Shown piece by piece: positions 7,294 through 35,830 of a stretch of 42,911 nt of DNA. The number at the start of each line of letters is the position of its first letter. Positions within the stretch are counted from its first letter, which is position 1. Under the pieces are notes generated by a model. The model ran no database searches. It was not told the origin of the DNA and saw only the letters and a program-made list of their open reading frames with translations. Source of the DNA: a virus; the IMG/VR virus record IMGVR_UViG_3300027861_001490, positions 1-42,911 of that record. One strand, given 5' to 3'. The position numbers and the translations under genes were made by a program.

Positions 7294-8286
7294 ATGGATG
7301 TAAACATTGACGTTATTAACGCAGGTACAGGTTATGGTGGAGTTGCTGAAAAGCTTCTACATAATAACATGAATGTATCTTCTTTAAGAACAAACGCTGT
7401 CCTTACATATGATGAATGGAAGGATATAGACACTGTAGTTCTACAGGAGGCTCACAGGAGACTAGGTGGAGTTAACGACCTTATCGAAAGAGGACTTGTT
7501 AGAACTGGTGGTGGATTAGGAAGTACGGTATTACAATGGCAGGATGCTAGTGATACTGATGATGCAGAAGTTAACATGGATGGTGTGAGTAGAAGTGCAA
7601 AAGATAGACAAGAATTTGACACTAACTATCTACCTTTACCAATCATTCATAGAGATTTTGGTTTCAGTATTAGGGAAATCGAAGCTTCTAGAAATACTAC
7701 TGCTAGTCAGCCACTTGATCTTTCAATGGCAGAAGAAGCTTCAAGAAAAGTTGCTGAAAAAGCAGAAAGTATTCTGTTCACAGGTTTAAGTACTTACTCA
7801 ATGGGTTCAAATGGTGGAATCATTTACGGATACACCGATCACCCTGACAGAAATACTCAAACGCTTTCACAGAACTGGGATGCTTCTGGTAAAACAGGAC
7901 AGGAGATTCTAACAGATGTTATTACTGCAAAACAGGCTCTGATTAACGACAGACATTATGGGCCGTTTATGCTTTACATACCAACTGCTTATGAGTCAGT
8001 TCTGGATGACGAATTTAGTACTCAGTACCCAAGATCAATCAGAAGTAGATTGCTTGAGCTTGAAGGACTGCAAGGTATTAAAGTTTCTGATTTCTTAACT
8101 GCTAATAACATAGTGATGGTTTCTATGCAAAGCACAGTTGTTAGAATGGTTGAAGGTCTTCCGCTTACAACAGTACAGTGGGAAACTGAAGGTGGAATGC
8201 AAGTGAACTTTAAAGTGATGACAATCATGGTTCCGCAGATTAGGTCTACACAGGCTAACAGAAGCGGTATCGTTCATATTTCATAA
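7294..8286 (+). CDS. Major capsid protein (HK97-fold, encapsulin-like)
   Basis: A 330-residue protein. Features include an N-terminal arm, LQWQDASDTDDAEVNMDG (about 91-108), PLPIIHRDFGFSIREIEAS (about 122-140) and SMAEEASRKVAEKAESILFTG (about 150-170, read in pieces). Near the end, GGMQVNFKVMTIMVPQIRS is like the last strand of HK97-type coat proteins related to family 1 encapsulins. Position after protease and decoration genes supports it. It begins at ATG 7294 after GGGAGAG. No separate delta domain is visible in front, consistent with scaffold function being supplied by the protease fusion. Confidence 0.88.
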   Translation: MDVNIDVINAGTGYGGVAEKLLHNNMNVSSLRTNAVLTYDEWKDIDTVVLQEAHRRLGGVNDLIERGLVRTGGGLGSTVLQWQDASDTDDAEVNMDGVSRSAKDRQEFDTNYLPLPIIHRDFGFSIREIEASRNTTASQPLDLSMAEEASRKVAEKAESILFTGLSTYSMGSNGGIIYGYTDHPDRNTQTLSQNWDASGKTGQEILTDVITAKQALINDRHYGPFMLYIPTAYESVLDDEFSTQYPRSIRSRLLELEGLQGIKVSDFLTANNIVMVSMQSTVVRMVEGLPLTTVQWETEGGMQVNFKVMTIMVPQIRSTQANRSGIVHIS

Positions 8287-8350
8287 TTGCTCACAGTAAC
8301 CAATCTGTTTTTTAATACTTTATTTTAACCATAAATAAAAGGACAATAAA

Positions 8351-8683
8351 ATGCCGAAGTTTCAAGTTAAAGAAGGAAAAAAGCACTACTGGAAAAAGTC
8401 AGTTATAAGAGGAGGAAAAGATTCTGTCCTTAACGACAGACTTTTACAAGGTGGTGACATTCTCGAATGTGAAGAATGTGAGCTTGGTCAAGCAAGAGAC
8501 AAGTTCATTTTAATGACACAAACAGAGAAGAAGCAAGAACCTGTATATGGTTTCTTAATAAGAAAAATTGCAGATAAGCAGTATGATGTAATCAGTGAGA
8601 AGACAGGTGCTAAGATCAATGATAAAGTTTTGACACATAACGAAGCTAGAGAACTTGTAAAAGCACAGAGGTCTGATGGCTGA
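8351..8683 (+). CDS. Small head-associated protein, function unknown
   Basis: A 110-residue basic protein between the capsid gene and the accessory island. The C-terminal half (YDVISEKTGAKINDKVLT, about 77-94) resembles a short module that recurs in small phage head genes, usually after the major capsid protein. No catalytic motif is present. The end overlaps the next gene by eight bases, so the island's first gene is translationally linked to the capsid operon. A virion or assembly role is inferred from position. Confidence 0.55.
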   Translation: MPKFQVKEGKKHYWKKSVIRGGKDSVLNDRLLQGGDILECEECELGQARDKFILMTQTEKKQEPVYGFLIRKIADKQYDVISEKTGAKINDKVLTHNEARELVKAQRSDG

Positions 8684-9350
8684 TCGTTGGACTGTTCAAA
8701 AGTTGTGGCCTGATTCTACAGTGTTTATTGTAGGTGGTGGAGAAAGTCTCAACAAAACTGGTTTGCAATGGGATGAAAATACAGAAGATATTATCAAGAA
8801 ATCTATTTCTGATGATCTAGCTTGTATTCATGATCAACGTGTAATAGGTGTCAACAACGCTTTCGAATTAGGAGATTGGGTTGACATCTGTTTCTACGGT
8901 GATACTAGATGGTTAGATTGGAACGAAGATAAGATAATTCACTTTGCAGGTTTAGTAGTTTGTTGTCACCCACAAAATAAAATCGCTTGGATAAAGACTG
9001 TGGATAGAGAAAATGGATTTGGGTTAAACAAAGACCCCAATTTCATTACATGGAATAAATCATCTGGTGCTGCAGCTATTAATTTAGCTGTACACTTGGG
9101 TGCTAAAAACATAGTCTTGATAGGTTTTGATATGTTTGCTAGTGCGGATGGTGCTGATAATTGGCACAAAGCACATGTTATACCTAATCAGATAGCGACC
9201 TCACCTTATGAACGAATGCTGCATGCATTTGCAGAAATAAAACACGATGCTGATTCACTCAGAGTCAGGATAATTAACGCATCATTGAATAGTAAAATAG
9301 AATGTTTTCCAAAAATGGAGTTACAGGAGGCCATAGAACTTTGCAAATAG
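8676..9350 (+). CDS. DUF115/MAF-like protein, possible sugar transferase
   Basis: A 224-residue Rossmann-like protein. FIVGGGESLN (about 17-26) is the nucleotide-binding-like loop, and SSGAAAINLAVHLGAKNIVLIGFDM (about 128-152, read in pieces) is the characteristic second block of DUF115 proteins. These are related to motility accessory factors that attach sialic- or pseudaminic-type sugars, and to MptE-like pterin enzymes. It is the first gene of the accessory island and overlaps the preceding head gene. Its neighbours are glycosyltransferases, so a sugar-transfer role is more likely than pterin metabolism. Substrate cannot be inferred. Confidence 0.7.
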   Translation: MADRWTVQKLWPDSTVFIVGGGESLNKTGLQWDENTEDIIKKSISDDLACIHDQRVIGVNNAFELGDWVDICFYGDTRWLDWNEDKIIHFAGLVVCCHPQNKIAWIKTVDRENGFGLNKDPNFITWNKSSGAAAINLAVHLGAKNIVLIGFDMFASADGADNWHKAHVIPNQIATSPYERMLHAFAEIKHDADSLRVRIINASLNSKIECFPKMELQEAIELCK

Positions 9351-9982
9351 TTTGTTGCTATAAATCGGGAGGAGACTTTGGATGGGATTACGTTGATAAG
9401 CTTCACGAAAATCTCCTAGAGAAGTTGCATCACAGTTTTGAATTTACGGTGTTCACCGACAAGACTGACAGATTTTCTTTAAATGGAATCAACATACAGC
9501 CATTGGAGACTGATCTAGAATCTTACTGGTCAAAATTAGAAGTATTTAGAATGACAGGACAAGTAGTATATTTTGATTTAGATGTAATATTAATGCAGGG
9601 ATTAGATGAATTATTTAGGGCAGTAGAATTCTCTCCTTGTAGGACTAATGCGAATAATCATTTTTATATGATGAATGCATTTAATGCAAGTCATCCATTT
9701 AATTCCTCTATAATGGCATGGTCTGGAGACTTTTCTTATCTCCTTAACAATGTAGACCAGAATGTTTTAGATAGATATGGTAAATGGGATCAGGATTATA
9801 TAAGTGATGAAGTTTCAAAAACAAATGAAATACTTTCAGTAAACGATTTTATAAATGTTGCTTCTTATAAACATCATTGTAAAGATGGAGTGGATGACAT
9901 GGTGGATATAGTTGTCTTTCACGGACACCCTAGACCAAGAGATGTTAATTGGTTGGGGACATGTAAAGAGTTAAAAATATGA
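9341..9982 (+). CDS. Glycosyltransferase-like protein (GT-A fold)
   Basis: I place the start at TTG 9341, eleven bases past the start of the final G of AGGAGG (9325-9330). The protein then begins (M)QIVCCYKSGGDFGW, a natural first beta strand. An upstream ATG at 9302 in the same frame lacks a ribosome site and would overlap the previous gene by 49 bases. The product has about 213 residues. VYFDLDVILMQGLDEL (about 75-90) carries the DxD motif that binds the metal/nucleotide-sugar. Near the end, VVFHGHPRPRDV resembles the closing His motif of family 8-like and related transferases. Acceptor and donor are unknown. The stop overlaps the next ATG (ATGA). Confidence 0.75.
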   Translation: MQIVCCYKSGGDFGWDYVDKLHENLLEKLHHSFEFTVFTDKTDRFSLNGINIQPLETDLESYWSKLEVFRMTGQVVYFDLDVILMQGLDELFRAVEFSPCRTNANNHFYMMNAFNASHPFNSSIMAWSGDFSYLLNNVDQNVLDRYGKWDQDYISDEVSKTNEILSVNDFINVASYKHHCKDGVDDMVDIVVFHGHPRPRDVNWLGTCKELKI

Positions 9983-10602
9983 AAAGCGGAATATACCAAA
10001 TAATTTGTAAAGCAAATAATAAACGATATATTGGAAGCTCTATTGACCTATTCAAAAGAAAGAGTACTCATTTTAATGAATTGAGAAGCGGTATTCATGA
10101 CAATAAATATCTCCAAAATGCTTATAATAAACATGGCAAAGGCAGTTTTGAGTTTAAAATACTTTGTTATTATGAGCCAACAGAATTGCTTTTTCAAGAA
10201 CAGAGATTCTTAGATTATTATTGGGAAACTGCTTCTCTTTTCAATATTTGCGAAACAGCAGGTTCGTGTTTCGGAAAGAAAGTTTCTGAAGAAGCAAAAC
10301 AGAAAATTTCTAAAGCTAATACAGGCAAAAAACATTCCGAAGAAACTAAAAAGAAAATAATAAAATCCTTAACAGGCAAAAAACATTCCGAAGAAACTAA
10401 AAAGAAAATATCTGCATCTCATAAAGGTAAAAAACATTCTGATGAAACTAGGAAGAAAATATCAGAGACAGGAAAAGGTATGAAGAGAAAGCCTTTTTCA
10501 GAAATAGCCAAAGGGAATATGTCGATTGCTGCTAAAAAGAGAAGCCATAATAGGGATGGTAGCACTGGTAAATTTTCTAAGGGAGAATTGGTATCAAGAT
10601 AA
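9979..10602 (+). CDS. GIY-YIG homing endonuclease with NUMOD3 repeats
   Basis: A 207-residue free-standing endonuclease. GIY at residues 4-6, YIG at 17-19, R27 and a Glu near 74 match the catalytic layout of I-TevI, and even the start MKSGIYQI is the same. Residues about 100-165 contain three to four NUMOD3 DNA-binding repeats of 17 residues (TGKKHSEETKKKI). Two of these are encoded by identical 39-bp stretches. The ATG overlaps the stop of the upstream transferase, and the 3' end overlaps the reading frame of the downstream transferase, which lacks a normal start. The gene is therefore probably an insertion into the glycan island, not part of its function. Confidence 0.9.
   Translation: MKSGIYQIICKANNKRYIGSSIDLFKRKSTHFNELRSGIHDNKYLQNAYNKHGKGSFEFKILCYYEPTELLFQEQRFLDYYWETASLFNICETAGSCFGKKVSEEAKQKISKANTGKKHSEETKKKIIKSLTGKKHSEETKKKISASHKGKKHSDETRKKISETGKGMKRKPFSEIAKGNMSIAAKKRSHNRDGSTGKFSKGELVSR
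10321..10410 (+). repeat. Two identical 39-bp direct repeats in the homing endonuclease
   Basis: Bases 10321-10359 and 10372-10410 are identical and lie 51 bp (17 codons) apart, encoding TGKKHSEETKKKI twice. A third, diverged copy follows at about 10423-10461. Identity at the DNA level implies recent duplication of a NUMOD3 unit. Confidence 0.9.
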
Positions 10603-11273
10603 ATGTTATCGCAGTCAATCAGAATAGGGATCAACATGAGAATACCTTTATACGCTATATAGAAATACTGAAAGAGCATTATAAAGAAGATCATGATATA
10701 AAGTACTTTATATCAGAGGGACATCATTTCGAATTCAATAAGGCTAAATTATTGAACAAAGCAATAGCTGAGATGAGGCAGGATTTTGATGTGCTCTGCG
10801 TGTTTGATATTGATATGATTTACAGCTACCAATTCTTTAGTGCGATAGAGGAAGCTTTATATGAAGGTTGTAATTACATTGTTTCTTACGGACAAAAACT
10901 TCCTAAAGACCAATCTGATTACATAGTTGAAAATATGCAGAAGTGTTTTAGAGGAGAAGGTTCATTATTTAAAGGCTGTTCTCAAATAACTATCACAAAG
11001 GAAGTGCTGCAAATATTCAAAGATTGTTTCGGAGAAAAGTTTTACGATGAATCATATACTGGATGGGGTGGAGAAGATTCAGACATTTCGTTCAAGAGTA
11101 AGTTGTTGGAAGAAAAAATATTAATAAAAAGAAAAGAGTTGTTTGATATGTGGTTCCATCTATGGCATGAAAGTAGGGAACCTGAGAATTATAGAGAGAA
11201 GGATGGTAACTCTACTAAGTTCCAAGATAGTAAAGATGTGCTGAGAGAGAAGGTGGATAAATATGTATCCTGA
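10593..11273 (+). CDS. Glycosyltransferase (GT7-like C-terminal domain), apparent ATC start
   Basis: The frame opens at 10581 and has no ATG, GTG or TTG before 10749, yet the upstream residues are clearly coding: INVIAVNQNRDQHENTFI and FEFNKAKLLNKAIAEM form the usual N-terminal strand and F-N-x-x-K-L-L-N block. The best start is ATC 10593, seven bases after GGGAG (10581-10585), giving (M)KINVIAV and 226 residues. FDIDMI (about 59-64) is the DxD motif, and GWGGEDSD (about 162-169) is the acceptor-side block of galactosyltransferase-like enzymes. It overlaps the homing endonuclease by ten bases. Alternatives are a -1 shift from that gene or loss of the original ATG. Confidence 0.75.
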   Translation: MKINVIAVNQNRDQHENTFIRYIEILKEHYKEDHDIKYFISEGHHFEFNKAKLLNKAIAEMRQDFDVLCVFDIDMIYSYQFFSAIEEALYEGCNYIVSYGQKLPKDQSDYIVENMQKCFRGEGSLFKGCSQITITKEVLQIFKDCFGEKFYDESYTGWGGEDSDISFKSKLLEEKILIKRKELFDMWFHLWHESREPENYREKDGNSTKFQDSKDVLREKVDKYVS

Positions 11274-11967
11274 GATAACATTCACTATAACTACTTATAA
11301 AAGACTAGATATGTTCAAACGAACAATGAAAAGCTTTATGAGAAAGTGTATGGATAAAGAGTTAATAACACGATGGATACTGGTGGATGATGGAAGCCCT
11401 CAAGAGGAGTTGGATGAAATCAAGGAACTTTATCCAATTTTCGAGATCGTGCAAAATACTGTGGATCGTAGGGGGCAGCCAGTAAGCCTCAATAAGATTA
11501 TCGACATGGTGGAGACTGAATGGTTTTTTCATTGTGAAGATGATTGGATATTCCTGATACCATTCTTCATAGGGAATTTATTCGATATAGCTAATGATGA
11601 TAGGAGAATCAAAAATGTAATAATGCGAAATAAAAGGGGAAATATTCAGTATGGAAAAGAAGGAAATTTGATGTACAATCTTCATAGATATGATCCAGTA
11701 ATGGAGCCTCCACTGGTAAAGGACTACTCTCCATGCATACTTGATTGTGATAGCAATTGGTTTGGGTATAGTTGGAATCCCGGTCTTCATCACATACCTA
11801 CATTAAAGATCATAGGAAAATTAGATGAAGGACATTCAAACATCTCTAGAAAATGGGACAGAGCACACGCTTTAAGATACTTAGAACTAGGATTTAAAAG
11901 AGCGAATCCAGTGGATAAAATTTACATTGACCATATAGGCGAAGGGAAATCAGAGTACACACATTAA
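11263..11967 (+). CDS. Glycosyltransferase family 2-like
   Basis: A 234-residue protein beginning at ATG 11263 within the end of the previous gene. ITFTITTYKRLDMF (about 5-18) and WILVDDGSPQEE (about 38-49) are the standard GT-2 nucleotide-binding strands; EDDW (about 92-95) corresponds to the DxD position. A later YSWNPGLHHIPTLK block probably forms the acceptor side. It is cytoplasmic, with no membrane segment. It overlaps the next gene by one base. It would transfer a sugar from a nucleotide donor; the acceptor, possibly a virion protein or a small molecule made by the island, is unknown. Confidence 0.8.
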   Translation: MYPEITFTITTYKRLDMFKRTMKSFMRKCMDKELITRWILVDDGSPQEELDEIKELYPIFEIVQNTVDRRGQPVSLNKIIDMVETEWFFHCEDDWIFLIPFFIGNLFDIANDDRRIKNVIMRNKRGNIQYGKEGNLMYNLHRYDPVMEPPLVKDYSPCILDCDSNWFGYSWNPGLHHIPTLKIIGKLDEGHSNISRKWDRAHALRYLELGFKRANPVDKIYIDHIGEGKSEYTH

Positions 11968-12611
11968 TGGATATAATTTTAGTAACTAACAATAACAAAT
12001 TTGACACAACTGAAATAGAAGAAAGCATTTCTGACGAGCACAATTTAATTTTTACAGGTCTAGATGCTTCTGCAAGTGTGAACAGAAACAAAGGATTGAG
12101 TGAAGTCAAATCAGAAATCTATATAATGATGGATGATGACATGCAGGGCTTCTATGAAGGGTGGGTTGAAGACCTAATAAAACCTATGCTTCACAATCAG
12201 ATGATACTCATAACATCCGCTAGGTTACTAAATACTAACGGTACAATGGGGCATATGATGGGAGACAATAAGGTATTTGAAAAAGGTACTTACGATGCAT
12301 CACCTAGCACTTACAGGGGATATACCAGAATACCTACAGCATGTTTAGCATTAAGGAAAAACAGTCTCAGATACAATGAAGAATTCATAGGCAGTGGTTA
12401 TGAAGACACTGATTATATGAACAGAATTAATATGCATTTCAAACATACAAGAATTATGATTAACAACGATTGCAAATTGATTCATAACAATATACAACAG
12501 AATCAAGGTGGTAAGTACTTTGCCCACAATAAAGAATTATACTTAAGTTTATATCCTGACGATACAACCGTTACTAACCAAGTCGATTGGACAGCAAGGA
12601 AAAGGAAATGA
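11967..12611 (+). CDS. Glycosyltransferase family 2-like, minimal
   Basis: A 214-residue protein with a shortened GT-A core. The N-terminal strand is DIILVTNNNKF, then ASASVNRNKGLSEVKSEIYIMMDDDM (about 34-59, read in pieces) provides the N-x-G segment and the metal-binding DDD. GSGYEDTDYMNRI (about 141-153) is the acceptor-side ED motif seen in many GT-2 enzymes. There is no membrane anchor. Start and stop overlap both neighbours (TAATG and ATGA junctions), placing it firmly in the island's operon. The specific sugar cannot be read from sequence. Confidence 0.8.
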   Translation: MDIILVTNNNKFDTTEIEESISDEHNLIFTGLDASASVNRNKGLSEVKSEIYIMMDDDMQGFYEGWVEDLIKPMLHNQMILITSARLLNTNGTMGHMMGDNKVFEKGTYDASPSTYRGYTRIPTACLALRKNSLRYNEEFIGSGYEDTDYMNRINMHFKHTRIMINNDCKLIHNNIQQNQGGKYFAHNKELYLSLYPDDTTVTNQVDWTARKRK

Positions 12612-13555
12612 ATAACAAGATTTACGAAATTGAGCTAAATACCAGTAATATATGTGGGGCTGAGTGTATTATATGTTCCAGACCTCATGGATGTGGAAAC
12701 AGTTTCTTTATGAAATGGGATGTTTTCGATACTCTAGTAGAGCAGTTAAAAGATGTAGATTTCACAATGATACAAACAAGTGGTAATGGGGAGACATTTT
12801 TAAATCCTAACTACCTTGACTACATTAAGAAATTGAAAGACACTTTTCCAGATAAGGTAAGGTGGACTTACAATAACTTCTCTATGCTAGATAAAGAAAA
12901 AGCAGATAGAATAGTAGAAGAGGATTTGTTTGATAGAATACATGTGAGATTAGAAAGTCTTGACAGAACAGTTTTTGAGAAAAATAGTAATCTTAATATG
13001 GATAATGTATTTGACAATCTTAAATACTTCTTATCTATAAATAAAAAGATACCAGTTGTAATTCTCTACAATGATATCAGGAAATATTATGCAAAGTGTC
13101 AAAGAGTTCTAGGTATGCGACCTGCAAGAGATATCTACACAGACGAGGAACTGAGTAAACTAAAATGTGAAGAAGGTGAGATCATAAACTACTTTAAGAA
13201 AGATAGTAGATCACCTTTGTCAATCACAAGTATAAGTCACTGCCTATGGGGAGAGCGTTTAAAAGCTCCTAAAGATACAGAAACAGCTTGTCCTAAACTA
13301 GACATAATAAAAACTGTTACTTGGATATGTCCTAACGGTGACGTACAAGTTTGTTGTTATGCTGATCACCAAGATGAAATGACATGCGGAAACATAATGG
13401 ATGATCACATATTAGATATCTTTAACGGTGAGAAGAGAAGAGAATTAATAAACAGAATTGAGAACAGGGACATAACAGATTATCCATGTACGAATCCGAA
13501 GTGTTGTGGGTTCCATGAAGGAAAGGAAAACACATCAGTAAGACACCAAAAATAG
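12608..13555 (+). CDS. Radical SAM/SPASM enzyme
   Basis: I choose ATG 12608, just after AAGGAAAAGGA; a TTG at 12587 in the same frame lacks a site. The 315-residue protein carries the radical SAM cluster motif CGAECIIC (C16, C20, C23, CX3CX2C), SGNGETFLN (about 58-66) in place of the GGEP-like SAM-binding strand, and a Cys-rich C-terminus (C212, C228, C241, C249, C250, C260, C294, C299, C300) typical of SPASM domains with auxiliary iron-sulfur clusters. SPASM enzymes modify peptides, sugars or proteins by radical chemistry. Neighbours are glycosyltransferases. No obvious precursor peptide is encoded nearby, so a sugar or virion-protein substrate is plausible. Confidence 0.88.
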   Translation: MNNKIYEIELNTSNICGAECIICSRPHGCGNSFFMKWDVFDTLVEQLKDVDFTMIQTSGNGETFLNPNYLDYIKKLKDTFPDKVRWTYNNFSMLDKEKADRIVEEDLFDRIHVRLESLDRTVFEKNSNLNMDNVFDNLKYFLSINKKIPVVILYNDIRKYYAKCQRVLGMRPARDIYTDEELSKLKCEEGEIINYFKKDSRSPLSITSISHCLWGERLKAPKDTETACPKLDIIKTVTWICPNGDVQVCCYADHQDEMTCGNIMDDHILDIFNGEKRRELINRIENRDITDYPCTNPKCCGFHEGKENTSVRHQK

Positions 13556-14403
13556 TAGCTCTATGCAAGACATTCAGAGGAGATGAATTCCTAGAAGCTA
13601 TGGTTAGGAGTATCTATAACCATGTCGATCATATTGTGTTTGTGAACTCAGAGAAGTCTTGGGATCATGGTCTTAAAGGGAACGTAGATACTTATGGCAA
13701 CACCTGTAAACCAGTAATTGAGAAACTGAAAAAGCAGGATATATGGGAAAAGATAATCTCTATTGATTGTAATACCGGAGATCAGTTCCATCAGTGTATG
13801 GAAGGTTACAGATATATACAGAATAATCTGAATGCTGATTGGGTAATGTTAATTGATACTGATGAAGTTTGGGATGATTACAATCTAACTCATGCTATAA
13901 GCTATCTGAAAAGGAATGAGAACCACGATTACGTTTACAGAGCTAGGCTTTATACTTATATAAAGAGTCCGTTCTATAGAGTAGAACCAGAAGAAGTAAT
14001 GGCTCCTACAATATTCGTAAGTGCTCGTAGAAAAGATTTAGGAAAGAATCACAGATGTTGTCAAGAAGCGTTTATGCAAAAAATGACAACTGATATTATT
14101 CCTAGAAAGCCTATTTGGTTTCACCACTTTGTTTATGTGAGGAGAGATTTCAATACTGTTCTGGAGAAAATCAGAAATTCAAATGGTTATGAAGGAAACA
14201 AGATAGTCGACTTAGAAGATTGGACTGAAAATGTCTGGAACAAAATTCCGGAACCTCTAGAAGGACAATGGAGAAAAGGATTTCATCCTGCAGTGCATTT
14301 CAAGAAGCATTGGGCAGGAATAAAAGAAATAACATTAGATGATTTACCAGAGGTATTTCATGAACACCCACATTTATTAGGAGAGCTTAGTGGCAATTTG
14401 TAG
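13534..14403 (+). CDS. Glycosyltransferase-like protein, apparent ATC start
   Basis: The frame is open from 13519 and has no ATG/GTG/TTG until 13600. The residues before 13600, SKTPKIVALCKTFRGDEFLEA, are a textbook first strand and helix of a GT-2-like enzyme, so the true start must be upstream. ATC 13534, six bases after AAGGA (13523-13527), gives 289 residues; ATA 13552 has no ribosome site. LIDTDEVWDD (about 108-117) is the metal-binding DxD. The C-terminal half is rich in His and Trp, with no membrane segment. It overlaps the radical SAM gene by 22 bases and the methyltransferase gene by 14. Confidence 0.75.
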   Translation: MSKTPKIVALCKTFRGDEFLEAMVRSIYNHVDHIVFVNSEKSWDHGLKGNVDTYGNTCKPVIEKLKKQDIWEKIISIDCNTGDQFHQCMEGYRYIQNNLNADWVMLIDTDEVWDDYNLTHAISYLKRNENHDYVYRARLYTYIKSPFYRVEPEEVMAPTIFVSARRKDLGKNHRCCQEAFMQKMTTDIIPRKPIWFHHFVYVRRDFNTVLEKIRNSNGYEGNKIVDLEDWTENVWNKIPEPLEGQWRKGFHPAVHFKKHWAGIKEITLDDLPEVFHEHPHLLGELSGNL

Positions 14404-15130
14404 ACACAATGATTGGAAGGTACGAGGAGATGGTTGCTATAAAGAATGTACAGTATGTGGAGTCTGGTTAGGAAATAGAACTGATCCTCACAACTATGAC
14501 GGTGATTACTATCACAGGAATAATACTATAGTAGATGGAATTCCTCAGAGACAATGGTATTGGGGAATACACAAAGCTATTTGGGATCAGATGGGCATTG
14601 ATTTCACTGAAATGGAAAGAGCTTTAGAATATGGTTGCGGAACAGGACAGTTACTTTGGTCATTATATAGAAAGTATGGCATTAGATGTCTAGGTGTGGA
14701 ACAATCATTTTGGGCTTACAATTGGCAGAGAGAAGTTCATGGCTTTGATGATGACTACCAGATATTGAATTTCAATGTCGAAGAATTAGACAACTCAATA
14801 TTGATATGTTGTCCAGAACATGAGGATCGTAAATTTAATTTCATCTATTCCTGTCATGTAATGGAACACTTAATTGATCCAATGAGGATGATAGAGAGAA
14901 GTCATGAAATGCTCAACAGTGGTGGGACTTTCTACATGGCTGTTCCTGATAAAGAACATCAGAAATCCTTACACGTTCATAAGTGGACTTACGATGAAGA
15001 GTGTATCAGAATGTGGTTTGAACAAGCAGGATTTAAAAATATACAGATAATACAGACTAAGCCACACAACCCACCACCTATAAATGGCGAGTATCGTGGG
15101 CATTACCTTCACGCAAGTGGGGTGAAATAA
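14390..15130 (+). CDS. SAM-dependent methyltransferase, class I, with Cys-rich N-terminus
   Basis: A 246-residue protein starting at GTG 14390, seven bases after AGGAG. Residues 4-23 hold CRH and a CX3CX2C group (C16, C20, C23), a probable zinc site. LEYGCGTGQLLW (79-90) is motif I binding SAM; LGVEQS is motif II; FNFIYSCHVMEHLIDP (about 145-160) is the post-I/IV region of Methyltransf_11/23-type enzymes. Methyltransferases with an N-terminal zinc site occur in sugar biosynthesis clusters, modifying nucleotide sugars or glycans. The island context supports glycan O-, N- or C-methylation. It overlaps the next start by one base. Confidence 0.85.
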   Translation: MAICRHNDWKVRGDGCYKECTVCGVWLGNRTDPHNYDGDYYHRNNTIVDGIPQRQWYWGIHKAIWDQMGIDFTEMERALEYGCGTGQLLWSLYRKYGIRCLGVEQSFWAYNWQREVHGFDDDYQILNFNVEELDNSILICCPEHEDRKFNFIYSCHVMEHLIDPMRMIERSHEMLNSGGTFYMAVPDKEHQKSLHVHKWTYDEECIRMWFEQAGFKNIQIIQTKPHNPPPINGEYRGHYLHASGVK

Positions 15131-16125
15131 TGGAACCAACAACGAGATTTGTATTAGATTCATCTAGAAGCTGCAATATAAAATGTAAATTTTGTTATTA
15201 CCTACATACTTATGATAAATGGAAAGAGTATGATTGGAGTTTAGATAAAGCGAAAGGAGTCATTGATAGTGGAATTGCTAGAGGTAATGATTATATGGAT
15301 GTTACAGGGGGAGAACCCACAATGTATAAACACATTTGTGAGGTGGTTGCCTACGCTCTTTCTAAAAATGTTAAGACCTGTATCATAACTAACGGAATAG
15401 TTCCTAGCCATAAAGCAGAGAAATTAATAAGTGCAGGAATAGACGAGTTCTTAGTTTCAAGACATGGTTTAGAAGATACTCATGACTTTACAACCAATTG
15501 CAGAGGTGCTTATAGGAAGCAATTGAATTTCCTACACGTTCTGGATATGAATGAGATACCTATCAGATTCAATTGTGTTATAAACCATTTTAATCAACAT
15601 GATATTTATGAGATAGCAAAAGAACTTGTTCAGCATAAGCCTAGAATTGTGAACTTTATTAATATGAATCCTCACCATGAATGGCAAGACAAGAATCTAG
15701 AGACTAAGAAAGTTGCAGCAGATTTAAATGTGGTAGAACCATTGCTTAACAAAGCTATCAAACTTTTAGAAGATAATGGTATAGGAGTCAACGTCAGATA
15801 TTACCCTATGTGTAGAATAGCGGAAGAGTATAGGAGATGTATTTGTAATGATTTACATGTGGTATTCGATCCCTACGAATGGGATTACAACATAGAACCT
15901 AAAACTGTTCAGGCTTTTAATAATTGGGGAAAACGCACAAGCTCAAATGTTGAATGTAAAAATGGTTCTTGTAAAGAATGTGACTTACAAAACATTTGCG
16001 GAGGTATTAACAAAGCTTTTGATAGAGCAACAGATTACAAATATACAAAGCCTGTTAAGAACTTCAAAGAGAACAAAGAAGATTTTTACTTTTACAGAAA
16101 AGATAACATAAGGACAATAACATGA
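15130..16125 (+). CDS. Radical SAM enzyme with SPASM-like C-terminus
   Basis: A 331-residue protein. CNIKCKFC (C15, C19, C22) is the CX3CX2C cluster motif, followed by YY as in many family members. TGGEPT (about 59-64) is the SAM-binding motif, and ITNGI (about 83-87) the next strand. The C-terminus has a compact Cys group, CKNGSCKECDLQNICGG (about 277-293), consistent with a SPASM/twitch auxiliary cluster. It is distinct from the radical SAM enzyme at 12608: a canonical GGEP here, and a more typical fold. It overlaps the sulfotransferase start (ATGA). It could form a C-C, C-S or epimerised bond on a peptide or sugar. Confidence 0.88.
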   Translation: MEPTTRFVLDSSRSCNIKCKFCYYLHTYDKWKEYDWSLDKAKGVIDSGIARGNDYMDVTGGEPTMYKHICEVVAYALSKNVKTCIITNGIVPSHKAEKLISAGIDEFLVSRHGLEDTHDFTTNCRGAYRKQLNFLHVLDMNEIPIRFNCVINHFNQHDIYEIAKELVQHKPRIVNFINMNPHHEWQDKNLETKKVAADLNVVEPLLNKAIKLLEDNGIGVNVRYYPMCRIAEEYRRCICNDLHVVFDPYEWDYNIEPKTVQAFNNWGKRTSSNVECKNGSCKECDLQNICGGINKAFDRATDYKYTKPVKNFKENKEDFYFYRKDNIRTIT

Positions 16126-16844
16126 AATCACCAATCTTAATCACAGGTTGTGCACGAAGTGGGACAAGTATGACAGCAGGTGTTGTAAATATCTGTGGAG
16201 CACATGGAGGCCACACAAGTCCTGCTACAATATACAATAAAAAAGGTATGTTCGAAAATGCTGATATAAGGAATGACTTAGTAAAGCCTCTCTTACAAAC
16301 TCTAGGAGTCGACCCTATGGCACAGCATCCTTTACCAGATGTAAATCTGTTTAAAGAGTTAGATGGTGCGGAATGGAGAGAGAAGATAGAAAAGATTTTT
16401 AAGGAGCAAGGTGTAGGAGAGGATGACACTTGGTTCTACAAAGGTGCAAAGATGTGCTTAATGTGGCCTCTGTGGAATGCAGCTTTTCCTGATGCTAAGT
16501 GGATTATAGTCCGGAGAAGAAGTAAAGAGATAGTAAACTCCTGCATGAGAACTGGTTTCATGAAAGCTTTTGATAAAGAAGAGGGATGGCAAGGATGGAT
16601 TCTACAACATGTAGAAAGATTTAATGAAATGCTTCACGCTGATTTAGATTTGATTGAAGTTTGGCCTCAAGAAATGATTGACGGTCAATTCAGTGAGATG
16701 CAGTCAGTTATAGAGTGGTTGGACTTAGAATGGAAAGAAGCAGAAGTAAGAGAATTTGTAGCACCTTCATTGTGGAATGAAGGAAAGGTAGTTGTGAATG
16801 ATAAGATTATAGCAGAAGCTTTTGATAAAGGAAGGTTAGGATAA
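16122..16844 (+). CDS. Sulfotransferase-like protein (PAPS-binding)
   Basis: A 240-residue protein. ITGCARSGTSMTAG (about 7-20) is the 5'-phosphosulfate-binding P-loop-like motif at the N-terminus of sulfotransferases. WIIVRRRSKEIVNSCMRTG (about 127-145) matches the 3'-phosphate-binding region (R-x-P/R...S). The N-terminal GMFEN segment (about 42-46) resembles that of bacterial sulfotransferases acting on carbohydrates. The enzyme would move sulfate from PAPS to a hydroxyl or amino group. As the last gene of the island it could sulfate the glycan assembled by its neighbours. The stop is one base before the head adaptor gene begins. Confidence 0.8.
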   Translation: MKSPILITGCARSGTSMTAGVVNICGAHGGHTSPATIYNKKGMFENADIRNDLVKPLLQTLGVDPMAQHPLPDVNLFKELDGAEWREKIEKIFKEQGVGEDDTWFYKGAKMCLMWPLWNAAFPDAKWIIVRRRSKEIVNSCMRTGFMKAFDKEEGWQGWILQHVERFNEMLHADLDLIEVWPQEMIDGQFSEMQSVIEWLDLEWKEAEVREFVAPSLWNEGKVVVNDKIIAEAFDKGRLG

Positions 16845-16845
16845 A

Positions 16846-17232
16846 ATGGCGAGAGTTTCAGATGCAGAGGTAGCAGCAATACTTGATACAACTGTGACTA
16901 GCTTTACACCGTTTATAACGGCAGCTAATACGCTTGTAACAACTATGTTAGCCACACCTGCAAAGGTAACAAACACTACGTTACTAAAAGAAATAGAGAG
17001 ATGGTTAGCAGCACATTTCTTCAAGTGTAGTTTAGAGATGCAAGAGAAGGTTCACGAAGTAGGAGAAACTAAAGCAACATTCTTCGGTGCTTCAAATGAG
17101 AAACTTCTAAACTCTACCCTATATGGGCAGACAGCACTGGTTCTGGATACATCAGGAACACTGTCAAACTTAGGTAAGAGGATAGGAAGATTTAAACCAA
17201 TTCTAGCAATTAGCAGAGCAGAGGATGCATAA
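16846..17232 (+). CDS. Head-tail adaptor (connector) protein
   Basis: A 128-residue mostly helical protein that resumes the structural operon after the accessory island. The VSDAEVAAILDT start, the central WLAAHFF helix (about 53-59) and the late GRFKPILAISRAED match the small gp6/gp15-like adaptors that attach to the portal. Location right before stopper and gp10-like genes supports it. Family assignment is by position and general composition. Confidence 0.65.
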   Translation: MARVSDAEVAAILDTTVTSFTPFITAANTLVTTMLATPAKVTNTTLLKEIERWLAAHFFKCSLEMQEKVHEVGETKATFFGASNEKLLNSTLYGQTALVLDTSGTLSNLGKRIGRFKPILAISRAEDA

Positions 17233-31544: not shown

Positions 31545-32440
31545 TCCAGACTCTCCCATATCTTGGTTTTAGTTTTTTCATTAACTTTATTCTTAGTGAA
31601 AAACTCTTCTAAATTCTTCTCAAAATCAAAATCAATATCATAAGACTCATTCAATCTATTCACAAACGAATCAATTCTATCATCTCTCTTCTTAGCTACA
31701 TCAATATGCTCTCTACTTATAACATCTTTCTCAATAGGAAGGTAGACTCTTTCAACACTATTATCTTCTGCGTACCATAGGTAAACAGAGGGTTCATGGT
31801 GAATTTGGTTTGCACTCATACGCATCAATGAACCTGCGTTAACTAAGAGTCTACCTTCGTGCTCAACGACAAAACTTTGATGGTTATCACCGGAAACTAT
31901 AAGGTCGTAACAAGGAAATTTCCTGAGTAACCTTTTAGCGTGATCTGCTTTTTGATCAAACCATAACTTGTCACCCTGAGACTTGATAACCATTTGATGA
32001 ACCATAGCTATTTGTTTACCTTTAGGACATATTTGATTTATAGCAGATATGTTTTCTGAATAAGCAAAGCCATGAAGATTCAATGTATTAAAATTATATG
32101 GTTGCAGTACATTAATATACTCGTCTTTTTCAAGAACACCCAAACCACCAATCTTCCAATTTTCTAATCTGTGATTTAATATATCATGTTGTCCTGCAAC
32201 TAACCAGATACAAATTTCTGGATTCAATACCTCTTTAGCCCAATTTAATAATCTATCCCCCCACATAGGTCTGTGTCCGAAGTCTCCTGCGACAAGTATA
32301 GGACAATTATGTTCATTAGATAGGTTGAGAATAAACTCAATCTTCTTCCTCTGTGCTTCCATATAATCATCCGTTCTGCAAACTGGTCTGTCCCCTCTAA
32401 TATGCCAATCTGCTGAGAGTATCGCTGTGGGTGTTCTCAA
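31541..32440 (-). CDS. SbcD/Mre11-like metallophosphoesterase nuclease
   Basis: A 299-residue protein with the five calcineurin-type motifs: DWH (11-13), AGDFGHRP (51-58), GQHD (83-86, in place of GNHE/GNHD), MVHQM (H148) and SGDNH (183-187). Mre11/SbcD nucleases cut DNA ends and hairpins with a Rad50/SbcC ATPase. The matching ATPase is encoded as two genes on either side. The start overlaps the NadV-like gene by four bases. The C-terminal 80 residues, after the metal-binding core, are likely the capping and ATPase-contact region. Confidence 0.9.
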   Translation of the reverse strand: MRTPTAILSADWHIRGDRPVCRTDDYMEAQRKKIEFILNLSNEHNCPILVAGDFGHRPMWGDRLLNWAKEVLNPEICIWLVAGQHDILNHRLENWKIGGLGVLEKDEYINVLQPYNFNTLNLHGFAYSENISAINQICPKGKQIAMVHQMVIKSQGDKLWFDQKADHAKRLLRKFPCYDLIVSGDNHQSFVVEHEGRLLVNAGSLMRMSANQIHHEPSVYLWYAEDNSVERVYLPIEKDVISREHIDVAKKRDDRIDSFVNRLNESYDIDFDFEKNLEEFFTKNKVNEKTKTKIWESLE

Positions 32441-33912
32441 AAAGCACCTCCAATAATGTTTTCTCTGACTTCTTTTAATGTTATCTCTTTTGTGTTTTCT
32501 CCATTTCTAAAAACGGTTTGTAGAGCACAGTTGTTTACTTCATCCCAAGTTGCTTGATCTGCTAACTCAAATCCACCTTGATTCTGGTACACAGCAGTCA
32601 ACCCTTTTGCACTGTTCTTCATGCCATTATCAGTCTTTGGTTTCTTAAATATTTCTCTAGGTTCTCCTCCAACTTCTGCATAAGTAGCCTTTACTGCAAA
32701 TCCATAAACATCTCTAGTAGTATATTGGTAAGTGTAAGAACCTATTCCGAACACTACATTTGATGAAGCAAAATTCTTTTGTTGCAGTCTTGCACATATA
32801 TCTCTGCATCTATCTAAAGTGATACTATCTCCATAGATAAGACCGATATGATTGTCTAGTTGTTGGTATCCTTTATCTGTTATGTCTCCACCAAAGGTTT
32901 CCCACAGACATTCAATAGCTCCCTTTAACTGTGGAGCTTTAGTGCCATAGTATGACGGATCACCACAAATAATATTAGCAGGATCACCACTATCAGGTCG
33001 TATTACAACCTTGCCATCTCTAGCCATAATTTCATCTTTAAGAGCAGGTATGTATTCAGTAATAACTTTCCAGAAATCCCAAGTGTCAGATACAATACTT
33101 ATAATACCTGTCGGGTAAGTTTCTGTAATTAACTTTCTGAATGTTTCTAACTCACTTAGTTCTGAACCAAGACACATTACACTGTGCTCAGTAGCAGGAA
33201 CGGAACAACCTACCATCTCTTCGTGATGAAAGGGGACATTATAATACTGTTCTAGGAAATCTATAGCAGGAACAGTATCAGTGCCAATGAAAGAGGTTAA
33301 ATGTCCTGCACCAGAAATACATCCTGCCTCTAGTCCGAACATACCTCTGCATGAGAAATCATGTCCTTGAAATGGCACAAAGTCTCTATTGCCTATAGTT
33401 TTATCTGCATATTCATTGAGTATTTTCTTGTACTCTAAAGCCATCGTAGCTGATGTGCAGGCTCCCCATAATATAGTGCTCATAATAGTTTCAATATAAT
33501 TTGTCAACCAGAAAAATTCAGGTAAGGTATTGAAAACTACCAGACATGGTACTCTTAGATTTACAAGACTTCCTTCCGGAACGGCTTTAATTTCTAAAGG
33601 TAGATATCCTAGATCATGTAATGCTTCAATATGATCTATTTTCACTGTATCCTCTCCTAAAGCTTGATTCATTCTAAACTTATATTTGTCTCTTATTGTA
33701 TTGAAGTCTAGAGCAAAAAAGTTTTCATTCCATTGTTTGATCAAATATTCCTTAATGAAATATTGTAAACCAAAGAAAACTACTTTGTCTACTCCTTCTA
33801 ATCTACTTTCTCTAGGAGTTAAATTACTGAATACTAATGTCGTGTCTTTTGGGTATTGATAGATGTGTCCTGACTTATAAAAGTCAATCATGTGTGGTGG
33901 AAATATATTCAT
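32437..33912 (-). CDS. nadV: NadV/NAMPT-like transferase (NARP1 Namat candidate)
   Basis: A 491-residue protein of the nicotinamide phosphoribosyltransferase family. YKSGHIYQYP near the start, SCRGMFGLEAG (about 187-197), FIGTDTVPAI (about 208-217), the catalytic His in PATEHSVM (H243), and VVIRPDSGDP (about 302-311, R305, D307) are the NAMPT active-site blocks. Standard NAMPT makes NMN from nicotinamide and PRPP. In phages the pair of a NadV-like and a Prs-like gene is NARP1, where the enzyme joins nicotinamide to ADP-ribose pyrophosphate to form NAD+ directly. The adjacent Prs-like gene 12 bases away, and no visible NMN adenylyltransferase, support that reading. Confidence 0.9.
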   Translation of the reverse strand: MNIFPPHMIDFYKSGHIYQYPKDTTLVFSNLTPRESRLEGVDKVVFFGLQYFIKEYLIKQWNENFFALDFNTIRDKYKFRMNQALGEDTVKIDHIEALHDLGYLPLEIKAVPEGSLVNLRVPCLVVFNTLPEFFWLTNYIETIMSTILWGACTSATMALEYKKILNEYADKTIGNRDFVPFQGHDFSCRGMFGLEAGCISGAGHLTSFIGTDTVPAIDFLEQYYNVPFHHEEMVGCSVPATEHSVMCLGSELSELETFRKLITETYPTGIISIVSDTWDFWKVITEYIPALKDEIMARDGKVVIRPDSGDPANIICGDPSYYGTKAPQLKGAIECLWETFGGDITDKGYQQLDNHIGLIYGDSITLDRCRDICARLQQKNFASSNVVFGIGSYTYQYTTRDVYGFAVKATYAEVGGEPREIFKKPKTDNGMKNSAKGLTAVYQNQGGFELADQATWDEVNNCALQTVFRNGENTKEITLKEVRENIIGGAF

Positions 33913-33924
33913 AATTATTCTCCT

Positions 33925-34761
33925 TTAATAATTTAGATTGAATGATTTAACATAGCTATTGTGATAGTCCTTTAGTCTACTGTTTGTAGTTCCTACTCTC
34001 TTGTAATACTTACTTAGTTCCGCAAATCCCTTAGAGAAGATTCCGTGACTTACGAATAGATATGACTCTTTTACTTTTGCTTCCTGTAGTCTCTGTCCTA
34101 AAGCATTGAATGTAGCTCCACCGTCACAGATATCATCAACAACTATTGCAGTCATTCCCTCAATCATATTCTCAATTGATGCAACAACTATTCCAGATTC
34201 AGTTCTTCTTTTATTGCAGTAGATAACTGTGTCAAACATTCCCTTATTATACAAAGCTTCTGCTTTCTTTCTAGCTCCGTTATCAGGACAGATAAGAGCT
34301 AACTTGCTTTTACTAATATCTAAATATTCAATGAAGTCTAGAACCTCTCTGAAATTATCATAATCCACAAGCATCATATCATCTAACATAAGTCCTGCAA
34401 CATTACTATGAATGTCATATGATATAATCCTGTAAAGATTTAATGACTCTAGTATTTTACAGATAACTTTGAGAGAGAATGCCTCTCCTGTATCGCAAAC
34501 CCTGTCCTGTCTTGCGTAAGGAAAATAAGGGATGAATAATTCTATGTCTCGTACTCCTCGTCTTTTCAGAGCATCCACAGCAAATATGATATTCATTAGA
34601 TCATCTGAATTATTTACTCTACTGTTTATACGACAAGAATGTACTCCATGTGGTACGTCTATTTGTAAATAACATTCTCCTGCAGGAAACAGATTAACCT
34701 TAAAATCTAATGCTTCGCCACATTGTCCGAAACCTTGATGCAAATTTAATGTTTTTTCCAT
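33925..34761 (-). CDS. prs: Prs-like pyrophosphokinase (NARP1 Adps candidate)
   Basis: I choose ATG 34761, just after GGGGAG; GTG at 34779 would fall in the previous gene. The 278-residue protein has YFPYARQDR (79-87), the ATP-binding region, SYDIHSN (114-120) in place of the usual DPHS, PDNGARKK (159-166) and the PRPP-type loop VVDDICDGGATF (207-218). It is shorter than cellular PRPP synthetases (about 310). In NARP1 a Prs homologue (Adps) pyrophosphorylates ADP-ribose instead of ribose 5-phosphate. Adjacency to the NadV-like gene suggests this. A plain PRPP-supply role is the alternative. Its start is coupled to the stop of the ATPase gene. Confidence 0.88.
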   Translation of the reverse strand: MEKTLNLHQGFGQCGEALDFKVNLFPAGECYLQIDVPHGVHSCRINSRVNNSDDLMNIIFAVDALKRRGVRDIELFIPYFPYARQDRVCDTGEAFSLKVICKILESLNLYRIISYDIHSNVAGLMLDDMMLVDYDNFREVLDFIEYLDISKSKLALICPDNGARKKAEALYNKGMFDTVIYCNKRRTESGIVVASIENMIEGMTAIVVDDICDGGATFNALGQRLQEAKVKESYLFVSHGIFSKGFAELSKYYKRVGTTNSRLKDYHNSYVKSFNLNY

Positions 34762-34762
34762 A

Positions 34763-35830
34763 TTACTCTCCCCTTCCACATAAAGGACAAGTTAAAGGCA
34801 TCAACTCCTCAAATTTAGCCTTATCTTCTTCTAATTTCATCTTCTTCCAATCAAGATCAGTCTGTATATCAGTAATTGTTCCTAAAGTGTTTTTCAATTC
34901 CTCTAAATTTCCCTGTCTCTGATCTAAATGAATAATGTCTTTCTCAATAGCATATATGTCATTTTGGCAGTCTTTAACACCAGAATACTTTTTAAGCTCT
35001 CTTTGACATTGTATGATGTAATCTAATGTTGCCTTTAAGCCCTCAACTCTAGTGGTTTTGTCAATTCGTTCTTTTTCTAACTCTTCTACCTCAATTATAA
35101 GCTTTTTAGCTTCAATTACACTAGAATATTTCTTAAGTTCATCCTGACAAATTGTAACGCTTTTCAGCACATCATGAAGAGTATCAAGATTACTAGATCG
35201 TTCAAACACTTCCTCATTTAACCCCTCTATTTCGATCAGGAGAGCCTCTGCTTTTTCGAGGTAGTCAAACCCTGCATAACGTATTTGCGTGGCTTCTAGC
35301 TCCTGTTTTACCCTTGTATACACCGTTTTTTCGTCTTTTAGGGTCTTATTTATATTAGTTAGGGATGTGTCGATCTTATCTAAATGAACTATATTATTCA
35401 GATATGAGGCAACTTCTCCCCCCGACATAGCTAACAGAAAAGGAGAATCGAACTGACTCGCTATGTTTAAGGAGGAGAAGTTTAAAAGTTCTTTTATTTC
35501 GGTAGGTACATTTTGTCCAAATGATGCAAAAGATGTTATACCATTTGGATCACTTATTGAGTATGTGTTCTTAGTCTTTTCTTTAGACCTAATAACTGTT
35601 TGCTGATAATCAGAATGTAGTTCAGTGGATAAGGTAGCTTTTGTATCACCACCCCATTTACTCCGGAAAGCTTCACCCGATGGTTTGTTGTTAGCCACCC
35701 AATTGAGTGCTCTGATGATAGCACTTTTGCCTGAATCGGATTGTCCGATAATGACATTGATACCATCATCAAAGCTGAGTTCAGTTTTCTTATGGCTCTG
35801 AAAGTTAGAAATTGTTAGTTGTTTAATCAT
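34763..35830 (-). CDS. Rad50/SbcC-like ATPase, N-terminal half
   Basis: A 355-residue protein. ISNFQSHKKTELSFDDGINVIIG leads into the Walker A GQSDSGKS (29-36), and LAMSGGEVASYLNNIVHLDKID (about 138-160, read in pieces) is the phage SbcC-type motif. A long coiled coil fills about 160-335, and the protein ends TCPLCGRGE with C348 and C351, the zinc-hook CxxC. It stops exactly at the hook, and the returning coil plus Walker B are on a separate gene at 30325-30933. It would pair with the SbcD-like nuclease. Start overlaps the upstream gene by eight bases. Confidence 0.88.
   Translation of the reverse strand: MIKQLTISNFQSHKKTELSFDDGINVIIGQSDSGKSAIIRALNWVANNKPSGEAFRSKWGGDTKATLSTELHSDYQQTVIRSKEKTKNTYSISDPNGITSFASFGQNVPTEIKELLNFSSLNIASQFDSPFLLAMSGGEVASYLNNIVHLDKIDTSLTNINKTLKDEKTVYTRVKQELEATQIRYAGFDYLEKAEALLIEIEGLNEEVFERSSNLDTLHDVLKSVTICQDELKKYSSVIEAKKLIIEVEELEKERIDKTTRVEGLKATLDYIIQCQRELKKYSGVKDCQNDIYAIEKDIIHLDQRQGNLEELKNTLGTITDIQTDLDWKKMKLEEDKAKFEELMPLTCPLCGRGE

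Follow-up and report, generated by a model that had tools for sequence, protein, structure and literature searches.

In the window, meaning the whole 42,911-nucleotide stretch of viral DNA analysed, the interval that runs from the major capsid gene to the first neck gene contains ten glycan-type enzyme genes, A to J, and one homing endonuclease gene (Table 1). Termed here the island, this interval encodes A, five further glycosyltransferase-like proteins (B, C, D, E, and G), two radical SAM enzymes, one methyltransferase, and one sulfotransferase, an inventory listed in the original prediction and borne out by domains and motifs. Cofactor and active-site motifs are intact, with CxxxCxxC present in F and I and GxGxG in H. 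Both F and I had been described as radical SAM/SPASM enzymes; the radical SAM assignment holds for both, with SPASM recorded for F and PF04055 for I. The endonuclease gene between B and C was missing from the earlier gene list, and the overlaps between genes, previously put at 1 to 4 nt, measure 1 to 22 nt. The capsid gene product is of the DUF6260/linocin type and falls under the PHROG annotation "virion structural/major head protein." Purifying selection acts on A, B, C, D, E, G, I, and J (dN/dS of 0.04 to 0.25 against the nearest relative). No RNA families were found across the window.

Table 1. Genes of the capsid-neck interval and its landmarks, with the evidence for each assignment.
Feature	Coordinates	Strand	Evidence
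Major capsid protein, left landmark, possible glycan acceptor	7294..8286	+	PF19774, PF04454, phrog_771
g8351, small head-operon protein, candidate acceptor	8351..8683	+	position after capsid gene, C-terminal domain
A, sialyltransferase-fold (GT42/Maf-like), constant first gene	8676..9350	+	PHROG 4603, PF01973 below cut-off, AF2 fold
B, glycosyltransferase, DxD motif	9341..9982	+	phrog_1962
GIY-YIG + NUMOD3 homing endonuclease, between B and C	9979..10602	+	PF01541, PF07460, phrog_314
C, GT7/GT2-like glycosyltransferase, probable AUC start	10593..11273	+	below Pfam cut-offs
D, GT2 glycosyltransferase	11263..11967	+	PF00535
E, GT2 glycosyltransferase	11967..12611	+	PF00535
F, radical SAM enzyme with SPASM domain	12608..13555	+	PF13186, CxxxCxxC at residue 16
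G, GT2-like glycosyltransferase, probable AUC start	13534..14403	+	below Pfam cut-offs
H, SAM-dependent class I methyltransferase, GTG start	14390..15130	+	PF13489
I, radical SAM enzyme	15130..16125	+	PF04055, CxxxCxxC
J, PAPS-type sulfotransferase, last island gene, adjoins neck gene	16122..16844	+	PF13469 over cut-off, PAPS motifs, fold
neck1, first head-tail connector gene, right landmark	16846..17232	+	position and conservation in relatives

Two of the middle genes, C and G, lack an ATG, GTG, or TTG codon at the true N-terminus and, judging from the sequence, probably start at ATC codons (10593 and 13534, respectively). Disruption of gene C by the homing endonuclease was considered and rejected, as a related locus (L003) with no endonuclease at the B-C boundary has the same C N-terminus, with ATT replacing ATC. 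This relative also carries an intein in F and is without H. Relatives of B are present in most islands, and a genome scan with glycosyltransferase G returned nothing but copies of close relatives.

The constant first enzyme, A, has a predicted sialyltransferase fold that is supported by both structure and sequence. The AF2 model (pLDDT 90.6) has CstII as its top structural match (E 2.6e-4, TM 0.43 to 0.50), and a profile search at the sequence level likewise matches CstII (E 9e-4). A is an MptE-like/DUF115 protein, and PHROG annotates its family as alpha-2,3-sialyltransferase (PHROG 4603). Against PF01973, A scores 29.3 bits and does not reach the curated cut-off of 34.6; it is therefore named Maf/GT42-like rather than assigned to the family. 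The Maf_flag10 domain (pfam01973) itself resembles CstII (PMC11339370), and A has the fold and the GGGxS...GxDM motif order in common with GT42 CstII and the Maf flagellin O-glycosyltransferases (MAF_flag10/DUF115, PF01973). A further parallel is that the target of Maf, which is modified in the cytoplasm, assembles by itself. Unlike Maf, A is only about 224 amino acids long and has no flanking Maf domains, and its TM-score to CstII reaches only about 0.45 to 0.5.

At the other end of the island, J passes the Sulfotransfer_3 cut-off (PF13469; 31.9 bits against 27) and contains both PAPS motifs, a 5ʹ-PSB (ITGCARSGTS) and a 3ʹ-PB (R132-x7-S140), whose residues are invariant or nearly so among 10 homologues. 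Its predicted fold is like that of STF1 and TPST. The closest relatives of J with solved structures include tyrosylprotein sulfotransferases, so J could act on protein instead of carbohydrate, although its likeness to these enzymes equals that to others. The J family occurs on at least 344 IMG/VR contigs, and no relatives were found in cultured phages among 50,697 records. Sulfotransferases on viral contigs have likewise been described as "auxiliary metabolic genes" in viromes (PMC8290583, PMC10829341). In those studies they are read as genes of host metabolism or of nucleotide or protein modification, whereas J here is fixed beside a neck gene and downstream of A.

The position of the island is constant among relatives. 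When 74 distinct loci were chosen on A alone, the capsid gene lay upstream of A in all 60 that have at least 2.6 kb of upstream sequence, and the order capsid–g8351–A was found in 59 of these 60, mostly with a gap of 7 nt or less between g8351 and A. J precedes neck1 in 28 of the 35 A-selected loci that reach that gene. Selection on J yielded 64 distinct loci; neck1 or neck2 lies within 1 kb of J in 60/60, and A is present in 17 of the 18 with enough upstream DNA. Among 53 capsid-neck intervals, 21 are empty (340 to 911 b) and 26 contain J, in every case accompanied by A (26/26). This synteny with the capsid and neck genes holds over deep divergence. Cultured relatives of the capsid protein (Brevundimonas and Citrobacter phages) have no annotated glycan genes between their capsid and neck genes, and a genome scan with the capsid protein returned one distant archaeal MAG only.

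Between these constant flanks, gene content varies. Two phages with 95% identical capsid proteins (L002 and L061) share none of their cargo, whereas two with 55% identical capsid proteins (L010 and L080) share all of it, with J 92% identical. Comparison of these sequences indicates that the middle genes are exchanged between phages as a block; near-identical phages could therefore wear different coats. A follows capsid divergence better than J does (rho 0.58 versus 0.28), a correlation confounded by the fact that A adjoins the capsid gene. Bacterial capsule and O-antigen loci show the same pattern, with constant outer genes, different middles in near-identical genomes, and the same cassette in distant ones. 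Unlike those loci, the island is part of the head operon of a phage, and the window's copy lacks genes for a polymerase, a flippase, or export.

This likeness of the cargo to bacterial surface-polysaccharide genes would also fit enzymes that act late in infection on a glycan of the host surface, which might serve to stop progeny re-adsorption or superinfection. Temperate-phage glycosyltransferases alter host serotypes, as is generally known and as noted in PMC12619734. However, the window's island encodes no protein with a transmembrane segment and no flippase, polymerase, or ligase, and its linkage to the capsid and neck genes is unbroken in both sets of 60 loci. Morons of the host-surface-modifying type usually move freely. 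Modification of the host surface is thus an unlikely role for the island. For the virion-glycan reading favoured below, a caveat is that late expression timing or hitch-hiking within the operon could equally produce the linkage to late genes.

Sugars and sulfate might instead be placed on modified phage bases as a defence against restriction, and phage DNA modification based on glycosyltransferases and sulfotransferases has been proposed (Iyer 2013, cited in PMC10829341). Against this stands the head-operon position of the island. Moreover, no thymidylate-synthase-type gene (PF00303) scored over the cut-off in 27 contigs with the locus or A, some of which may be fragments, while the control matched. 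No base-modifying gene was recognised among the tested right-arm genes of the window either; a Tet/JBP search had no working control. DNA hypermodification is largely rejected on these grounds and is very improbable.

A third possibility is that the locus mainly modifies proteins and builds no glycan chain, with A adding a single sugar, J sulfating tyrosines of the head, and the cargo being loosely connected passengers. Loci reduced to A and J, or to A, B, and J, do exist (L109, L116, L203, and L008), and J is similar to tyrosylprotein sulfotransferases. In most loci, however, A and J are separated by several genes for glycosyltransferases or sugar-nucleotide enzymes, and those tested evolve under purifying selection; we consider this explanation improbable.

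The reading we favour, at a probability of roughly 0.7, is that the head operon contains, in this interval, a locus for a virion glycan that is begun by A, lengthened by exchangeable enzymes, and sulfated by J. The original preference for a virion-attached over a host-surface glycan is supported by the synteny, the Maf/CstII-like fold of A, the lack of membrane proteins, and g8351. This small conserved gene between the capsid gene and A was absent from the earlier description; its C-terminal domain is seen only in island phages, an association that is partly phylogenetic, and the domain profile was seeded from these same phages. The further claim of a complete pathway is unsupported because the window's island contains no gene for sugar-nucleotide synthesis, nor one for transport, and donors must come from the host.

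Under the virion-glycan reading, A, as a soluble enzyme related to the Maf catalytic domain, would attach the initial sugar to one of the head proteins during assembly. Candidate acceptors are the capsid or a decoration protein and g8351, whose C-terminal domain is specific to island phages. B and the other glycosyltransferases would then lengthen the glycan with sugar nucleotides from the host. Its modification would fall to the methyltransferase and the two radical SAM enzymes, and J would sulfate the product using host PAPS; the methyl and sulfate groups are predicted to sit on the glycan. The enzymatic activities, the sequence of steps, the acceptor, and the role of the coat are all inferred. 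Recombination would swap the middle block, with the conserved flanking sequence as an aid and homing endonucleases at gene boundaries as a possible second one, giving closely related phages different coats.

The locus would be a distinct form of phage virion glycosylation, which is known chemically in mycobacteriophages; we found no report of it in the open-access literature searched. To our knowledge, phage virion glycosylation is documented chemically in only a few actinobacteriophages. Glycans on the capsid and tail-tube subunits of mycobacteriophages (Che8, Rita, and others) are reported to shield the particle from antibodies (Freeman et al. 2023, cited in PMC11256854, PMC12619734, and PMC13313380). 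There, as in the island, the glycosyltransferases are phage-encoded. In Maravista their genes are found close to the 3ʹ terminus, in the island within the head operon; the island is linked to virion structural genes, a linkage that the precedent systems do not require. Additionally, the mycobacteriophage accounts consulted mention no sulfotransferase, no first enzyme of sialyltransferase fold, and no constant genes with exchangeable cargo in between.

Across a wide set of environmental phages, capsid and neck genes are accompanied by an enzyme of initiating type and a sulfotransferase. A tentative and more speculative extension is that many uncultured tailed phages carry a coat-antigen locus consisting of a fixed Maf-like initiator matched to a dedicated g8351 domain, a swappable cassette, and a terminal sulfotransferase, in which the virion "serotype" might be switched on the same capsid by cassette exchange driven partly by homing endonucleases. 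The model singles out the candidate acceptors (g8351 and the capsid or decoration protein) as well as one enzyme, A, without which the coat should be lost. If the virion-glycan reading is true, some of the virome sulfotransferases now counted under auxiliary metabolism may in fact serve the virion coat. Furthermore, the surface chemistry of the particle would be a routinely swapped trait, with a bearing on virion adsorption, clearance, and decay.

Between the major capsid gene and the first head-tail connector gene (neck1), the window, a 42,911-base IMG/VR viral contig from a tailed phage, carries an island of glycan-enzyme genes termed A to J. The enzymes named in the original prediction are all found there, along with a GIY-YIG and NUMOD3 homing endonuclease that its gene list had missed, and the gene overlaps, put at one to four bases, measure 1 to 22 nt. 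The set had also been said to look like a complete pathway, which it is not, because genes for sugar-nucleotide synthesis, a polymerase and export are absent from the window's island. Some family matches are weak, with C and G scoring under the Pfam cut-offs; despite this, active-site motifs are present in the island enzymes. Measured against the nearest relative, dN/dS is 0.04-0.25 for A, B, C, D, E, G, I and J.

Table. Genes of the window's capsid-neck interval and GIY-YIG endonucleases of related loci
Feature	Positions	Placement
Capsid gene	7294-8286	
g8351, small gene	8351-8683	after capsid gene
A, sialyltransferase/MptE-like		after g8351
B, glycosyltransferase		after A
GIY-YIG + NUMOD3 homing endonuclease	9979-10602	between B and C
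C, D, E, glycosyltransferases		after homing endonuclease
F, radical SAM/SPASM		after E
G, glycosyltransferase		after F
H, methyltransferase		after G
I, radical SAM		after H
J, sulfotransferase		after I, before neck1
First neck gene (neck1)	begins 16846	after J
GIY-YIG, L003	18298-18993	J/neck1 boundary
GIY-YIG, L061	6230-6772, 10266-10970, 11691-12326	within cargo, before J, before neck1

C and G lack an ATG, GTG or TTG at the N-terminus to which the reading frame and a relative point. C has ATC at 10593 behind the Shine-Dalgarno sequence AAGGGAG, giving the natural N-terminus MKINVIAV, and G has ATC at 13534 behind AGGAAAGGA, giving MSKTPKIVALCKTF; the near relative L003 carries ATT and ATC at the equivalent places (L003:11708 and 15712). 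Over the 53 codons ahead of the first canonical start of C, the differences from L003 number 7 in first, 5 in second and 19 in third codon positions, the pattern expected of translated sequence. Two glycosyltransferase genes appear, from sequence comparison, to use AUC or AUU starts with a strong Shine-Dalgarno (10593-10751 and 13534-13599) that are conserved in L003, possibly as a way of keeping enzyme levels low within a highly expressed head operon.

IMG/VR was scanned with the capsid protein (59 loci), a J profile and an A profile; the loci are contig fragments, and their genes were labelled with profile HMMs built for this analysis and iterated on the same locus set. Among 74 distinct loci selected by A (from the best 80 of at least 505 relatives), the capsid gene lies upstream of A in all 60 that extend 2.6 kb or more in that direction, the order capsid-g8351-A holds in 59 of these 60, the distance from g8351 to A is usually 7 nt or less, and J stands ahead of neck1 in 28 of the 35 loci reaching neck1. 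Among 64 distinct loci selected by J (from the best 80 of 344 relatives), neck1 or neck2 is within 1 kb of J wherever at least 1 kb of downstream DNA is available (60/60), and A is present in 17 of the 18 loci with enough upstream DNA. The 53 distinct capsid-neck1 intervals include 21 empty ones (340-911 bases) and 26 with J, all accompanied by A; among these 53, A occurs without J, and J was not seen without A. The smallest islands consist of A-J (L109, L203) or A-B-J (L008), and in a few phages (L024, L109, L116, L137) the A-J pair sits one gene further, between neck1 and neck2. This unbroken linkage to head genes argues against the island enzymes modifying the host surface, as does the finding that the island of the window encodes no membrane protein, flippase or ligase, and that reading is less supported than a virion coat.

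An AlphaFold2 model of A, built on 16 aligned A proteins (pLDDT 90.6), finds its best solved-structure matches in CstII-type sialyltransferases (E 2.6e-4 to 8e-4, TM about 0.45), and a profile search by sequence likewise reaches CstII (E 9e-4). The Pfam match of A, scoring below that family's cut-off, is a domain of the flagellin glycosyltransferase Maf. The substrate of Maf is a self-assembling protein that is glycosylated in the cytoplasm, which would be a fitting parallel for an enzyme acting on capsid. The matched domain likewise resembles CstII in Maf itself (PMC11339370). J passes the Sulfotransfer_3 cut-off, conserves both PAPS-binding motifs among ten homologues and has a fold resembling STF1 and tyrosylprotein sulfotransferases.

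The best-supported reading is that the island makes a virion coat. We infer the enzyme activities, the order of steps and the acceptor: A would initiate a glycan on one of the head proteins, B together with the cargo enzymes (those encoded between A and J) would extend and modify it, and J would add sulfate. DNA modification by these enzymes is less supported, as none of 27 contigs, possibly fragments, has a thymidylate-synthase-type gene over the cut-off; in the separate Tet/JBP search the control failed.

Cargo varies in composition between phages. Glycosyltransferases and radical SAM enzymes make up that of the window; L010 carries GT2s, epimerases, GDP-mannose-dehydratase-like pieces, radical SAM and one methyltransferase; L018 and L061 a zinc dehydrogenase, a split transketolase, and SDR and methyltransferase fusions; and L025 an epimerase, a GT11 fucosyltransferase-type enzyme, an FkbM methyltransferase and GT2s. 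With 95% identical capsids, L002 and L061 have no cargo in common, whereas L010 and L080, with capsids 55% and A 41% identical, have all cargo in common and J 92% identical. These comparisons indicate that phages exchange the cargo, sometimes along with J, and that A remains tied to the capsid. Divergence correlates with capsid divergence at Spearman 0.58 for A and 0.28 for J, both above permutation, and part of the A correlation could come from linkage alone because A adjoins the capsid gene. It is also possible that modification involves A and J alone, with the cargo loosely connected. Three cargo proteins (L061:4702-5436 and 7949-8635; L014:13379-14167) start with a sulfotransferase-like P-loop (e.g. 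PSVQHTGTWFV), which suggests additional sulfotransferases in the transketolase-type cassette; the two from L061 have no Pfam match.

Among the closest phages, GIY-YIG endonucleases occupy differing gene boundaries, and two of the L061 endonuclease proteins start with the first residues of the genes they precede, J and neck1. In L003, F has an intein at a SPASM cysteine pair (L003:13721-15733; ...QVC|CYVEDTEVF...WSSN|CYADHQ...), which F of the window lacks. As a guess, these mobile elements may promote cassette exchange.

A candidate acceptor is g8351, equivalents of which follow the capsid gene in island phages and in relatives with an empty interval alike, apparently with a short common N-terminal part (by eye). 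The island-phage versions of this protein carry at their C-terminus a stretch like GGGRYNVVNTETGRNLNDDYLSKKEATALI. With 16 island proteins as its seed, a profile built for this region picks up 35 of 46 distinct island ORFs and 0 of 21 from empty phages at i-E < 0.01; the 11 island non-matches are alternative overlapping ORFs or come from L030, L035 and L037, which have A and in which J was not found. The association is only suggestive, since the two groups differ by ancestry too. Mycobacteriophage capsid and tail-tube subunits carry glycans at their C-termini, according to the summary of Freeman 2023 in PMC12619734. Between the window and L003, g8351 has a dS of 1.3, against about 0.24 for the flanking capsid and A genes, which marks a small recombination patch.

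Elsewhere in the window, NAMPT-like and PRPP-synthetase-like genes are adjacent (32440-34779, minus strand). Such a pairing is typical of NARP1, by which phages reconstitute NAD+ (Namat/Adps; PMC12774641), or of ordinary NAD+ salvage, and it could be a counter to NAD+-depleting defences.

Virion glycosylation by phage enzymes is already known, and virome papers count sulfotransferases as auxiliary metabolic genes (PMC8290583, PMC10829341). In the open-access papers searched, we found no locus within a head operon that combines a constant Maf-like first enzyme with an exchanged middle and, frequently, a terminal sulfotransferase. Distant relatives of A occur in two cultured phages: in Caulobacter phage CcrColossus (L145, 98832-99482), where its neighbours are a tail gene and further glycosyltransferases, and in the putative morphogenetic pmgO/pmgP region of P1. 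These phages may offer tractable models.
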